A stretch of 37,950 nt of DNA from IMG/VR virus record IMGVR_UViG_3300026521_000471, positions 186,518-224,467 of that record. One strand, given 5' to 3'. Of this stretch, positions 2,734 to 36,681 are shown piece by piece; the first letter of the stretch is position 1, and every line of letters starts with the position of its first letter. This DNA comes from a virus. The notes under the pieces were generated by a model. It did no database searches and was not told the origin of the DNA. It saw only the letters and a list, made by a program, of their open reading frames with translations. Position numbers and translations under genes: made by a program.

Positions 2734-3012
2734 TTAAAGGGTTTTATTAGATTCTTGAAGTTTTAAATTTCTTTCTATTTCTAATACAGATGTATGTTCT
2801 AATAACATTTGATAAACTTTTGTATAATCTTCAAGTTCTTTTTTACTATATAAAGTTTTAGAATTTGGAGATGTAACCAATGTTTTTAATGCTTTATAAA
2901 TTTTTAAGAGAGATTCATTACTCATAACTATGTTCTCATCAAGAAGCTTTCGTACCTCTATAACTCGACCACTCAAACAATGTGAAATAAATTGTATATC
3001 ATTTTTATACAT
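2734..3012 (-). CDS. Hypothetical protein, 92 aa
   Basis: I do not recognise a family. The product is mostly helical (for example FISHCLSGRVIEVRKLLDE), slightly reminiscent of a single ankyrin-like helix pair, but too short to assign. The start is supported by AAGAGAGGG ahead of ATG 3012. Upstream there is no copy of the standard TTGACT/TATAAT promoter of this element. It stands alone between two non-coding stretches. Confidence 0.65.
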   Translation of the reverse strand: MYKNDIQFISHCLSGRVIEVRKLLDENIVMSNESLLKIYKALKTLVTSPNSKTLYSKKELEDYTKVYQMLLEHTSVLEIERNLKLQESNKTL

Positions 3013-3304
3013 TTTAACCCTCTCTTATAATCACCATAATAATATTTATAAAGCTAAAATAATTGTTTGGTTTGTAACGTTTGAATCATCTTTTTTAAAA
3101 TTGGTTGAACTAATTTAAAAACCAGTTTAATTTTTTCTTTGCATTTTTTATATGGTTATGATTGTGTGTTCACTTTTAAATGTGCTGATGCGTTGACGGC
3201 AAAAAATTAGAAAGTATATCTTATGAATTTAGATGGATTTAAAAATATTTATCTTTTCAAGTATGTTAGAATTATTTAGAAGAGAGTTACTGAAATATTA
3301 AATC

Positions 3305-3343
3305 AGTTAAAGAAATATAGGAATAGTTAAAGAAATATAGGAA
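3305..3343. repeat. Tandem direct repeat, 2 x 19 bp
   Basis: AGTTAAAGAAATATAGGAA is present twice with a single base (T) between the copies, giving a 20-bp period. It lies just left of the 17-bp-periodic array and may belong to the same locus. Confidence 0.8.
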
Positions 3344-3421
3344 GGTAGGGTTCTCCCACACTACCTTAAACTCGGCTTAACTTTTCATCCAAAAAATAGC
3401 CTTTTTCAGGGAAACGGTCGG

Positions 3422-3549
3422 TCAAAAAACACGCTATCCGAAAAAACACACCCCCTAAAAAAACACGCTTTGTTAAAAAACATGACTCTTTTTTTTAACG
3501 ATCGGTCAAAAAACACGACCGATTTTGAGAAGGGTTATCAAAAAACACC
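3422..3549 (+). repeat. Iteron-like array: six AAAAAACAC motifs, 17-bp period
   Basis: The A-runs of the core start at 3424, 3441, 3458, 3475, 3508 and 3540. The first four are spaced exactly 17 bp and the last two about double that. The common form is TCAAAAAACACG. Copy 5 lies in the loop of a perfect 7-bp hairpin (ATCGGTC 3501-3507 with GACCGAT 3517-3523). Copy 6 is framed by AGGGT and ACCCT. Copy 4 forms GTTAAAAAA/TTTTTTAAC with 3491-3499. Helical-phase spacing suggests binding sites of an initiator or regulator; this is an inference. Confidence 0.65.
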
Positions 3550-3559
3550 CTCTCTTTTT

Positions 3560-3790
3560 TTACCAATATAACTCAGTAACTCTCTTTGCTATTTTGAATT
3601 GTTCCTCATATGGTAAGTTTGAAAACTCTGCCGCCAATTCTTCATCACCACCGTGGATACTAACATAATCTAATGAAGCATCTGCTAACATTTCCGTTGT
3701 TAAATTCTCACCATTGATAGCTGCCACCTCTTCCATATCACATGCAATTGTTTGAATTGTATTTGATAATAAACTTTGGTACTTACTCAT
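3560..3790 (-). CDS. Small acidic hypothetical protein, 76 aa
   Basis: The product is acidic and helical (for example GGDEELAAEFSNLPYEEQ), with no recognised domain. The start follows AAAGGGAGATATA. Its own promoter (3819-3847) has its -35 embedded in the last codons of the upstream gene. The iteron-like array begins just beyond its stop. Confidence 0.75.
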   Translation of the reverse strand: MSKYQSLLSNTIQTIACDMEEVAAINGENLTTEMLADASLDYVSIHGGDEELAAEFSNLPYEEQFKIAKRVTELYW

Positions 3791-3818: not shown

Positions 3819-3847
3819 ATTATACCATAATTTTAATTAGTTGTCAA
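3819..3847 (-). promoter_or_regulatory. Sigma70-type promoter for 3560-3790
   Basis: Read on the minus strand it has TTGACA, a 17-bp spacer and TATAAT, which is a perfect consensus. The -35 box is formed by the final codons CTT GAC AAC TAA of the upstream gene. Confidence 0.9.
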
Positions 3848-4415
3848 GAGTTTCTAAGTATTTAGACATCTCTTTGAATTTATCTTCATAATCCATATAT
3901 GTATATTCCACGAATAAAACAATTTCGGCAAAACTATCTAAAATTTCTTGTACATCTTTCATATCGAGACCTAAAAGTGCATATGGTGAATGTTTGTGAG
4001 CGATAATGTTTCTAAGCTTGTTAAACATTTGTAATAAATGTTTATCATTATTTGGAATATCTAAGAGATTCAATAATTGAGACATTGTTAAATCTGATCT
4101 TTTTACTATTTTGAAATCATTAGCATCACATGCATATCTCATTAGTAAAATAGTAGTAAGTTTAGTATGAGTATTTAATACTAAATCATTAGCTATTAAT
4201 ATATCATAAGTTGCTTTATCAATTTTTCTAAGTATTGATTTTGGGGTATTTGGAGTTTGTGGCATCATTATATATTTAAAATTTTTTATTCCAGAACGAA
4301 CACACGTACTAAAATCTCCTGTAAAAATAGCTATATCTAAAGGCATTGATACACTATAAGATTTTATTCTTTCAATTAGTAAAAGTTGTTCCATACTATT
4401 CAATCTTTTTAACAT
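3837..4415 (-). CDS. Hypothetical protein with HEPN-like RNxxxH motif, 192 aa
   Basis: The protein is all-helical in appearance. It carries LRNIIAHKH at about residues 135-143, which matches the R-N-x-x-x-H signature of HEPN domains, a family that includes RNases of toxin-antitoxin, abortive infection and RNA-processing systems. The motif is followed by an amphipathic helix ending in a Tyr/Glu-rich C-terminus. HEPN assignment rests on this motif and the helical character alone, so it is tentative. There is no adjacent MNT nucleotidyltransferase, the usual partner of some HEPN toxins. It is a monocistronic unit with its own promoter at 4445-4473. Confidence 0.7.
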   Translation of the reverse strand: MLKRLNSMEQLLLIERIKSYSVSMPLDIAIFTGDFSTCVRSGIKNFKYIMMPQTPNTPKSILRKIDKATYDILIANDLVLNTHTKLTTILLMRYACDANDFKIVKRSDLTMSQLLNLLDIPNNDKHLLQMFNKLRNIIAHKHSPYALLGLDMKDVQEILDSFAEIVLFVEYTYMDYEDKFKEMSKYLETLDN

Positions 4416-17164: not shown

Positions 17165-17260
17165 GTCCTCCTCTTTTAATATTCTTTATATATTCTTTAG
17201 GCAAAGTACAAACGTTTTTTGCCGGTGTTTATAAGGTCTTAAAAGATGGTTATAGAAAAA

Positions 17261-17363
17261 AATCAATATTGGTTTGTGTTATAATCAATATTGGATTGTG
17301 GTAATAAGGCATTAAATCAATATTAGATTGTGTTACCGACTAAAAATCAATTTTATTTTGTGG
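17261..17363 (+). repeat. Iteron-like direct repeats upstream of rep1
   Basis: Four copies of AATCAATATTnGnTTGTG begin at 17261, 17283, 17315 and 17345 (spacings 22, 32 and 30 bp). The first two are nearly identical and the fourth is degenerate (AATCAATTTTATTTTGTG). They are candidate binding sites for the Rep_3 protein encoded immediately downstream. Confidence 0.75.
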
Positions 17364-17400
17364 TTGTGTATATCTTACTTTTTCAATATTAAAGCACTAA

Positions 17401-17467: not shown

Positions 17468-18628
17468 ATGAATATTGAAAAATTGGAAATTAATAAGCCT
17501 AGTGAATTGACCCAAGTTGTTTTTACACAACAAATAAAAAAAGAGCTTAATATTTATAAAATGTCGGCATTACAAATAGATCTTATAAATGTCATGTTTT
17601 ATAAGATACGAAAGGAAATTGGTAAGCATAAATTAGAAATAGATGAATCACAACCATCAACACTTTTTGAATTTACATTAAATGATTTTAATAATATGCT
17701 ACAGAAATATAACAATAATCAATATGGTGAAATTATTGAACAATTAGATTCATTATCCGATATAAAAATCATAATTAATAGTATTGGTAAAAATAAAGAT
17801 ATTGATGAAATGATCATTACTAGATTCATTCAAGAAATAAGAGTATCAAAGCATAGAAAAACCGAAAAGAAAAAGATTAAATTAGCAATTTCAAATACAA
17901 TTATAAAAAGATTTATAGATGTTAAAAAATATTTTTCAAAAATGTTTTTAACTATACAATTCTCTATGAAGTCTAAATATTCTAAATTGTTATATGAATT
18001 ATTAAAAGATTATGAAGGTATAAATACAAAACAATTTGAGTTGAATGTTTTAATGGACTTGATCAACGTTAGTGAAGATTCGCAGAGAGTATGGTCAATA
18101 TTCAACCAAAACATTCTCAAAAAGGCAGTTAAAGAAATCAATGAGAAATCGGATATAAAAGTTTCGTATGAACCTATTAAAGAAAGACCTGATAATGGCA
18201 GGTTACAAGTAACTAAAATTAAGTTTATAATAGAAGAGCAACAATGTGCTTTAATAGATAGTCAAGAGCCTGAAATGTCAATAGAAGAACAATTGCTTTA
18301 TAATAAAAAAAGGGCTATAGCAGAAGAAAGATTAGAAAAGGCAAAACAATTCCAAGAAATCAATAATGAAGAAGCATGGATTAAAAAGACTATTAAATCT
18401 ATTACAGATGATTATGTTGAATTACAGGATTTAATAGAAGAGTCTAAAGAAGTTTTAGATAATACAGATTTATCAAAATTCAATGATTTATTGTTAATAA
18501 AATATGGCGATTTAGTTGGTATGGTAGATTATAAATTATGTTATGTTTTTGATGATACACAAGCACCACTTACAAGTAATGCTTATGAAACTTATTTGGT
18601 TTTAGAAGAATTAAAATCTAATCCATAG
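17468..18628 (+). CDS. Rep_3-family replication initiator, 386 aa
   Basis: This is a RepA/RepB-type (Rep_3, RepE-like) initiator expected to bind iterons and open the origin. It has tandem winged-helix regions: WH1 at about 15-120 and WH2 at about 160-250, with the family segment KSKYSKLLYELLKDYEG (168-184) and a following NILKKAVKEINEKSDI (215-230). The C-terminal 130 residues are acidic and helical and have no clear counterpart in the short plasmid proteins. A second, divergent Rep_3 protein is at 24562-25743. Start follows AAAAAGGATACCACAA. The 3' end overlaps the convergent Nudix gene by 11 bases. Confidence 0.88.
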   Translation: MNIEKLEINKPSELTQVVFTQQIKKELNIYKMSALQIDLINVMFYKIRKEIGKHKLEIDESQPSTLFEFTLNDFNNMLQKYNNNQYGEIIEQLDSLSDIKIIINSIGKNKDIDEMIITRFIQEIRVSKHRKTEKKKIKLAISNTIIKRFIDVKKYFSKMFLTIQFSMKSKYSKLLYELLKDYEGINTKQFELNVLMDLINVSEDSQRVWSIFNQNILKKAVKEINEKSDIKVSYEPIKERPDNGRLQVTKIKFIIEEQQCALIDSQEPEMSIEEQLLYNKKRAIAEERLEKAKQFQEINNEEAWIKKTIKSITDDYVELQDLIEESKEVLDNTDLSKFNDLLLIKYGDLVGMVDYKLCYVFDDTQAPLTSNAYETYLVLEELKSNP

Positions 18629-23471: not shown

Positions 23472-23512
23472 GGGGGGTGCTAATTGATAATGATTATTAA
23501 AATCATTATCAA
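23472..23512 (-). promoter_or_regulatory. Oriented palindrome plus G-run, copy 2
   Basis: GGGGGG at 23472-23477 is followed by TGCTAA and a perfect palindrome TTGATAATGATT, five bases, AATCATTATCAA (23484-23512). This 29-bp palindrome is the exact reverse complement of copy 4 at 30663-30691. It points to the large minus gene. Confidence 0.8.
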
Positions 23513-23547
23513 ATAATTTTAAGATTAAATTAAGGGTCTAAATGATT

Positions 23548-23579
23548 TTGATAATAATAATCATTATCAATTTGACCCC
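23548..23579 (+). promoter_or_regulatory. Oriented palindrome plus C-run, copy 3
   Basis: TTGATAAT...ATTATCAA (23548-23570) is followed by TTTGACCCC (23571-23579). The C-run side points to sir2, about 80 bp before its promoter. Confidence 0.75.
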
Positions 23580-24561: not shown

Positions 24562-25743
24562 TTATCCCATTGTATAACTAATAGAGCAATTCTTTATATA
24601 TTCTGTGGTTTCTACAATATCATAGTGACCTTTTTTCATAAATGATTGGATCTTCATCCTAGTGTCTCTGGCACTAGTAGATACCTCAACACCTTTTTCT
24701 ATATCATAGAGCTTATAATTATTATTAACTGTTATAAATTGATTATCTTTACTATAATCTTGTAAAACCACTAAACCTTCGTGCTCATAGTTATTATATT
24801 TGATATTATTCAACCATTCTTGTAATAACACTTTAGCTTCATATTCATCTCTTAATTTAAAAGCTTCTTTTCGTAGCTTATGTTTGTATGCTTCAGGATT
24901 TTCTATAGCATCTTTTGTTTTGAATCTCGTTATTTCTTTAAACTTACGATTTATATCTCTTTCTACATAATATGCAACTTTTCTATTCATCAAAAATTCT
25001 TTACTAAAGTACGTATCTGGATCTTCAACTTCAGGTGCAACATGTGTTACTATTCTAACTTCAGCTGTTTGTACTCTATTTGTTTCAGCAACAGTTGATT
25101 TAATTTTATTATATTCAAAATATAAATTTGTTTTTTCATTTAACTCTTTAGAAACCCTCTTTAAAATATTGCTATTTAACCTTGACCAAGTAAGCTCTTT
25201 ATATTCCAAACCAAAATCGATCATTCGCACTAATTCTTCTATTGAATAAGTGCTTACAGTTCTATCTTTTTTATAGAATTTTTCATAAATTATTTTGCTA
25301 TATTTGCTTTTCAATCCATACTTATCAATTCTATACAACAATGCAAATAAATGCAGATTATTTCTCAATAACTTAACTAAAGTAGTATTTACAATAATAT
25401 TCAATCTTTTATTAATGTCATTATCAGTACTACTTATATTATATTGATAAACAAATGTTGCTTTAGACATAAGAACACTATTATCATTTTCATGGTATAT
25501 TGTTGCAACAGATTTTGAAAGCGATTCAAGTGTTTGCATGATAGTTTCAATACGCAATTCTAAAAAACCCAATGATGAAGATAATTCATGCATATTAGTA
25601 TCTATCACGTATCCTAATTGATTTCGATCAATACCTTCCGTAGCAAAAGCATCATCTCGTTCAACAATATTAATAAGTACATTAACTAAGTCAATTTCAG
25701 ATTTTGTAATATTCCAAAAGAGATGTTTAAATTTAGATTGCAA
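24562..25743 (-). CDS. Second Rep_3-type replication initiator, 393 aa
   Basis: This divergent relative of the 17468-18628 protein has a matching winged-helix region (about 135-215) with LKSKYSKIIYEKFYKKD, followed by NSNILKRVSKELNEKTN. The C-terminal part is again long and charged. No in-frame ATG with a ribosome site is visible. TTG 25743 is chosen because AAAGG stands eight bases before it; the frame could extend to a TTG at 25782, which has no ribosome site. No standard promoter and no obvious iterons were found beside it, but a 12-bp-arm inverted repeat (25793-25828) lies upstream. The stop abuts the sir2 stop with no gap. Confidence 0.82.
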   Translation of the reverse strand: MQSKFKHLFWNITKSEIDLVNVLINIVERDDAFATEGIDRNQLGYVIDTNMHELSSSLGFLELRIETIMQTLESLSKSVATIYHENDNSVLMSKATFVYQYNISSTDNDINKRLNIIVNTTLVKLLRNNLHLFALLYRIDKYGLKSKYSKIIYEKFYKKDRTVSTYSIEELVRMIDFGLEYKELTWSRLNSNILKRVSKELNEKTNLYFEYNKIKSTVAETNRVQTAEVRIVTHVAPEVEDPDTYFSKEFLMNRKVAYYVERDINRKFKEITRFKTKDAIENPEAYKHKLRKEAFKLRDEYEAKVLLQEWLNNIKYNNYEHEGLVVLQDYSKDNQFITVNNNYKLYDIEKGVEVSTSARDTRMKIQSFMKKGHYDIVETTEYIKNCSISYTMG

Positions 25744-25792
25744 CCATAAGACCTTTATAATTTTTAAATTATTTATACTCAATATTTTACAA

Positions 25793-29554: not shown

Positions 29555-29611
29555 TAAGAATAGTGAAGATGAATTTGGGTGGTGTGCACTTTTTCATCTT
29601 CACTATTCTTA
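29555..29611 (+). repeat. Perfect 19-bp hairpin
   Basis: Arms 29555-29573 and 29593-29611 are perfect inverted repeats (core AAGAATAGTGAAGATGAA) around a 19-base loop containing GTGTGCAC. No T-run follows, so it is not a standard terminator. Its right arm ends just before the TATAAT at 29615. Confidence 0.85.
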
Positions 29612-29647
29612 TTGTATAATAAATAGTAGAAAACTATGGAGTTATAT

Positions 29648-36211: not shown

Positions 36212-36220
36212 TATAGATGC

Positions 36221-36249
36221 TTGATTTATTTACTTTTTTATGTTATAAT
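36221..36249 (+). promoter_or_regulatory. Orphan promoter with no gene downstream
   Basis: It has TTGATT, 17 bp and TATAAT with TATGT before the -10 and an ATAGGTAAC start region like the GGDEF gene promoter. No ORF of useful length follows on the plus strand. Confidence 0.88.
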
Positions 36250-36255
36250 ATAGGT

Positions 36256-36330
36256 AACAAAAGGGAAGAGAAAGAGGAAGAAAAATTTCCCTAAGAAAAA
36301 ATAAAAATCCCTTATTTTAAAGGGGTTTTG
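36256..36330 (+). ncRNA. Candidate small RNA
   Basis: From the orphan promoter the transcript would begin near 36256 with a purine-rich stretch (GGGAAGAGAAAGAGG). It then holds a 6-bp stem (AGGGAA/TTCCCT) and a 10-bp stem AAAATCCCTT/AAGGGGTTTT (36304-36329, one G-U pair). The end is approximate because the terminator is not a textbook one. Its purine-rich part could pair with pyrimidine-rich RNA. Confidence 0.45.
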
Positions 36331-36527
36331 GAGGGGTAGAATGATATTTCTTGGATATGGGTAAAAAAGTAACAAAATTTTTGAATAAATCGAATTTTTT
36401 TGTTAGTTTAATAAGACTTTAAGGGAAGGTATGTTAAGTGTTAAAATGGTTTTTTTGCTTAAGGAGTGTTTAAGGTGTCATATCTGCCCGTGAAACCATA
36501 GGAATTAAGATTTTTACTTCCAAAAAC

Positions 36528-36645
36528 TTCCAAAAAAGATTAGTTTTTACCTCTATTTTACTCTGATTTTTAGTTCCAAAAAAGATTAGTTTTTACCTCT
36601 ATTTTACTCTGATTTTTAGTTCCAAAAAAGATTAGTTTTTACCTC
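36528..36645 (+). repeat. 46-bp tandem repeat, about 2.6 copies
   Basis: Units begin at 36528, 36574 and 36620, each starting TTCCAAAAAAGATTAG; the first two are identical and the third is cut after about 25 bases. A shorter TTCCAAAAA also precedes the array. The copies abut without spacers, so it is not a CRISPR array. Confidence 0.88.
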
Positions 36646-36681
36646 CTGATTTCTTCAAAAATACATCAATTAATATCTTAA

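Follow-up and report, generated by a model that had tools for sequence, protein, structure and literature searches.

A same-direction array of nine-base sites beside the putative early-promoter block of a jumbo phage, tentatively read as a DNA-binding platform

Six same-direction copies of a nine-base word, AAAAAACAC or a close variant of it, form a real array in a non-coding gap of this phage genome. We tentatively read this array, with a probability of about 45%, as a platform of six (perhaps seven) 9-bp sites for one sequence-specific DNA-binding protein, most likely a product of the phage itself. Several molecules of the protein would line up at a pitch of 16.6 bp in the gap just outside the early-promoter block. 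We infer protein binding, with DNA rather than RNA as the target, and an effect of that binding: the bound protein would control either transcription out of the early block, toward a gene for a 92-aa protein and nrdB, or the initiation of replication.

The window, meaning the whole stretch of DNA that was analysed, comprises the final 37,950 bases of a 224,467-base virus record and has a G+C content of 28.7%. Judged by its gene content, the contig is a jumbo phage. It carries rIIA and rIIB, as well as genes for a tail-fibre attachment protein, GroEL, aspartyl-tRNA synthetase, the small chain of ribonucleotide reductase and tRNAs. The tRNA genes number about 22, and a tmRNA gene (tag ANTKLYIPQTARVAA) is also present (L013:1437-1818 and L007/L008). 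Contig position ~185 kb and window position ~25 kb are both switch points of GC skew and gene orientation.

Five of the six copies, all on the plus strand, are exact AAAAAACAC words: copy 1 (3424-3432), copy 2 (3441-3449), copy 3 (3458-3466), copy 5 (3508-3516) and copy 6 (3540-3548). Copy 4 (3475-3483) is AAAAAACAT and differs in its final base. Copy 1 is immediately preceded by AACGGTCGGTC, and copy 5 by AACGATCGGTC. The start-to-start steps were 17, 17, 17, 33 and 32 bp. The first-pass annotation had reported four copies at exact 17-bp steps, which we confirmed, and two more at about double that distance; the wider steps are 33 and 32 bp, and not 34. The copies share a common register with a best fit of 16.6 bp, a fit that 25 of 20,000 random spacings attained. 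A degenerate copy, AAAAAATAG, was read directly on the plus strand 33 bp ahead of copy 1 (3391-3399), in the same register.

The clustering of the word is unique. AAAAAACAC is the sole 9-mer in the entire 224-kb contig with five non-overlapping copies in 130 bp, and five of its 11 occurrences (both strands of the 224 kb) are in the array. A five-copy 9-mer cluster appeared in none of 150 order-2 Markov versions of the window. The variable columns among copies 1-3 all fell within the 8-bp spacer (P = 0.0004): the core is identical in the tandem copies, whereas the spacers match at just 2-4 of 8 positions. This contrast suggests that the 9-mer is under selection, and it argues against a tandem repeat in decay. 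The 16.6-bp pitch showed no helical phasing (resultant 0.49, p = 0.44).

The surrounding non-coding gap measures 547 bp (3013-3559) and is the longest of the window by a crude ORF call. It is flanked by a 92-aa ORF (2734-3012) and a 76-aa ORF (3560-3790), both on the minus strand. The array was first described at 3422-3549, but the feature is larger, including the gap, three A+T-rich 20-bp direct repeats of the AGTTAAAGAAATATAGGAAT type (3285-3343, plus strand) and a perfect 14-bp inverted repeat bracketing the region. The left arm of the inverted repeat, AAGAGAGTTACTGA, is at 3280-3293 (plus strand), and the right arm at 3573-3586 (minus strand) overlaps the final codons of the 76-aa ORF. This ORF gave no family match and is the leftmost gene with an early-type promoter, a perfect TTGACA-17-TATAAT with TG ahead of the -10 (3819-3847, minus strand), which reads through the ORF toward the array. 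On the other side of the 92-aa ORF, an A+T-only perfect inverted repeat of 24 nt (2478-2635), with 110 bp between its arms, lies in a 378-bp gap; few perfect inverted repeats in the contig are longer.

Matches to an extended -10 sigma-70 promoter numbered 29 in the contig, and 25 of these were found within window positions 3847-36221. This 32-kb block is presumably the early block. Its promoters are mostly near-identical (TTGACTTTTT...TATGTTATAATATGGCATAATTAAAGAAAAGG). They read leftward from 21393 downwards and rightward from 23656 upwards, thus diverging from a centre at 21.4-23.7 kb. The array is located just outside the leftmost gene of the block. Three further elements were seen in gaps of the window. 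An inverted pair of GATAATGATTATT-like stretches, resembling Fur boxes, is at the centre of the divergent promoters (23482-23572). A 19-bp perfect stem with a 19-nt loop (29555-29611) precedes the ORF at 29636. At the right edge of the block, 46-bp direct repeats in ~2.6 copies (36528-36665) lie in the gap 36212-36681, and the promoter match at 36221, ahead of these repeats, feeds no clear ORF.

Three hairpins span 3472-3555, and this stretch folded better than its shuffles (z -3.2 and -4.1 for the two strands). Hairpin 1 (GTTAAAAAA...TTTTTTAAC, 3472-3499) holds copy 4 in its A+T stem. Hairpin 2 (ATCGGTC-AAAAAACAC-GACCGAT, 3501-3524) has a perfect 7-bp stem with copy 5 as its loop. Hairpin 3 (GAGAAGGGT...ACCCTCTC, 3527-3555) contains one bulge, has copy 6 in its loop region, and precedes a T run on the plus strand; by eye it looks like a terminator. 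The description of copies as loops of perfect hairpins therefore applies to copy 5 only; copy 6 occupies the loop of a hairpin with a bulge, copy 4 belongs to a stem, and copies 1-3 are unstructured. The stretch of copies 1-3 folded no better than shuffles (z +0.7 and +0.4 for the two strands), so hairpin formation is not inherent in the repeat itself. Recognition of these copies would be by sequence.

The main rival to a DNA platform is a role of the array as RNA, which we consider possible but rather doubtful. The promoter at 3847 would read leftward through the 76-aa gene and yield an early 3' untranslated region or a separate RNA, closed by the 14-bp inverted repeat. Its minus-strand GUGUUUUUU motifs would bind a host or phage RNA-binding protein and act as a sponge or a stabiliser. 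Consistent with this, the promoter is perfect, no clear terminator lies between it and the array, the three hairpins beat shuffles on both strands, and the 331-nt minus-strand RNA of the region folded better than all shuffles (z -5.3). Moreover, the pitch in an RNA requires no helical phase, so the lack of phasing, unusual for cooperative binding on one face of the helix, counts against the DNA platform and not against the RNA. However, the plus strand reached nearly the same score (z -4.6), as inverted repeats in DNA predict. The 14-bp inverted repeat raised the score of the full stretch on both strands, and the interior without it reached only about z -2. In a ranking by regression of 2766 windows of 320 bases, covering both strands of the contig, the region came 18th, with tRNA clusters making up many of the higher ranks. 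Given this rank and the score of the interior, structure alone is not strong evidence for an RNA gene. The copies are also found in differing structural contexts (loop, stem, unstructured), and the window had no Rfam 15 match at the curated gathering score, the best at the array region being 27.7 bits compared with the 56 needed. A transcription-termination zone, whose hairpins and T/A runs would halt transcription where the early block ends, is quite unlikely. The gap adjoins the last early gene, and the T run after hairpin 3 (plus strand) suits such a zone, as does an 8-bp stem with T7 behind it (minus strand). A consensus scan for loops of 3-8 only, on the other hand, returned a single terminator-like site (minus strand, 3357-3340), where shuffles gave 0.9, and termination leaves six 9-mers in register unexplained. 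Equally improbable is a functionless tandem repeat in decay. Degenerate A-rich repeats of similar appearance occur in unrelated genomes, but decay should spread across the unit, whereas here the core is intact next to near-random spacers, and the register is kept across the wider steps. We give very little credence to a repeat RNA in a toxin-antitoxin-like pair, as in type III systems or AbiF, with the 192-aa protein encoded nearby (3837-4415, minus strand). By direct reading this protein has an RNIIAH motif, it weakly matched Csx1/Csm6 HEPN profiles (E = 0.0017), and it is possibly a HEPN-like phage RNase; its AlphaFold model, made with no alignment, had a mean pLDDT of 36 and could not be used. 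Some phages do carry HEPN toxins with repeated RNA motifs (PMC12373285). In those systems, though, the RNA is ahead of the toxin gene and co-transcribed with it (PMC12373285). The array is instead downstream of the HEPN-like gene, behind the 76-aa gene with its own promoter, and no Rfam antitoxin RNA matched.

A second origin, for instance for a second Rep_3 protein, had also been proposed for this site, and we regard it as possible but do not favour it. The phage encodes two such proteins. Rep_3 protein 1 (Rep3_N and Rep3_C; 17468-18628, plus strand) is directly preceded by four 22-bp iterons of the AAATCAATATTGGTTTGTGTTA type (17260-17365, plus strand), which differ in sequence from the array and likely constitute a classical origin in a jumbo phage. 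Rep_3 protein 2 (Rep3_C match; 24562-25782, minus strand) is a paralogue of protein 1 (24% identity, E = 1e-15). No iterons were found beside its gene, and the Rep3_N profile had no match in the contig beyond protein 1. The array is near no rep gene, as the first-pass annotation stated, the distances being ~14 kb and, for the rep 2 gene, ~21 kb. It is unlikely that Rep_3 protein 2 binds the array as a second replication origin or as a control site; as this is a special case of the DNA platform, the probabilities of the two overlap, and those of all readings do not sum to one. The paralogue without local iterons would fit, and the 20-bp A+T-rich repeats and the 24-nt A+T inverted repeat at 2478-2635 lie close to the array, where a DNA unwinding element might be expected. 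In addition, a pattern scan of genomes revealed, among its listed matches, arrays with an A6CA[C/T] core directly before Rep_3 genes in five other replicon lineages (Sphingobacterium, Paraglaciecola, Chryseobacterium, a proteobacterial MAG and a small viral contig); having been picked for this core, they prove that such iterons exist, not how frequent they are. All five comparison arrays, however, repeat a full 21-22-bp unit, have a two-helical-turn pitch and abut rep. In the literature, iterons measure 17 to 22 bp, and Rep no longer binds cooperatively once two of them are shifted by half a helical turn (PMC4980987). The array shares with Rep_3 iteron origins its direct repeats in one orientation, but conservation covers 9 of 17 positions only rather than an entire 17-22-bp unit, the pitch is 16.6 bp rather than near two turns (21-23 bp), and no rep gene adjoins it. 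Based on the conserved unit, the pitch and the rep distance, we did not class the array as an iteron origin of the Rep_3 type. An origin is further disfavoured by the GC skew, which has no switch at the array and reaches its minimum ~21 kb away, at Rep_3 protein 2 and rIIB. No exact DnaA box was found near the array, and one-mismatch sites occurred there at background density only; A+T-rich repeats and an A+T inverted repeat are present. The array may still serve as a binding array for a Rep_3-type protein. Comparison by eye of the second winged-helix region in Rep 1, Rep 2 and the Reps of the A6CA[C/T] replicons gave no shared signature predictive of the site. We see little chance of a division of labour in which one Rep_3 initiator uses local classical iterons and the other works through a compact array far from its gene, made of 9-bp sites with a 16.6-bp pitch and bordering the early region. 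If true, this would be an initiator array of unusual geometry, apart from its gene.

Two other candidates were rejected. A phage attachment site with arm-type sites would call for a tyrosine integrase (PF00589), and none was found in the record, which may be incomplete. A mobile element bounded by the inverted repeat was dismissed because its flanks, read directly, have no target-site duplication.

Relatives were sought at several levels. The DNA of the array region had none in phages or plasmids. At the protein level, Rep 1 had no relatives in plasmids or phages, Rep 2 none in phages or virus contigs, and none were found for the 76-aa and 192-aa proteins. The ribonucleotide reductase query matched ten distant virus records; no other window protein matched in the stretches around these hits, and the 76-aa protein was absent from the whole records. 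A strict three-copy pattern of the array did not occur in virus contigs. The two-copy pattern occurred in six, only one of which (L024) had additional copies; its spacers are C-rich, and no gene was seen in common with the phage. A loose three-copy pattern retrieved mostly exact tandem repeats, both in virus contigs and among the matches listed for genomes. Literature on the nine-letter word itself yielded unrelated primers only. The Bacteroidales MAG RGIG9171 (L035, L036, L039 and other JAGBJI01 loci) carries at least about two dozen dispersed A6CATATG arrays with a 22-bp period, which look like a dispersed intergenic element.

Several lines of evidence argue for the DNA platform. The conserved core, variable spacers, fixed register and single orientation of the copies suit the binding platform for a regulator that was suggested at the outset, and the word is clustered nowhere else in the contig in this way. 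The array occupies the longest gap of the window, at the edge of a block with most of the promoter matches, and A6CA[C/T] arrays elsewhere act as initiator sites, or stand where such sites are expected. Against the platform, the hairpins around copies 4-6 are not accounted for by DNA binding alone, and phages and plasmids provided no relative for testing conservation. The pattern itself is clean and statistically firm; the platform is putative. As far as we are aware, little is known of how replication starts in jumbo phages with plasmid-type initiators, or of how their early transcription is ordered. In this phage, two Rep_3 proteins occur together with a single classical iteron set, a compact array and a block of stereotyped early-type promoters with sharp boundaries. 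The phage is therefore a clean test case for whether the second initiator, or another phage protein, acts far from its gene.

The array region resembles known systems in part. Like GOLLD, ROOL and OLE, which are large structured non-coding RNAs of phages or bacteria, it is a non-coding region in a phage, with a closing long-range stem and several hairpins. It differs from them in its size of ~310 nt, in matching no Rfam family, and in a fold signal that is alike on both strands. With the RNAs of AbiF and type III toxin-antitoxin systems it shares repeats near the gene of a HEPN-like protein. Those RNAs precede the toxin gene, whereas here the order is reversed, an extra gene and promoter intervene, and Rfam gave no match. 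The iterons of Rep_3 plasmids (RepE/pi/TrfA-type) are likewise short direct repeats that all point the same way, sit in a non-coding gap and have A+T-rich repeats nearby. They differ in their full 21-22-bp unit and pitch, compared with 9 bp at 16.6 bp in the array. Plasmid Rep_3 iterons also adjoin rep, whereas the array does not, and Rep 1 of the phage has a separate, classical set.
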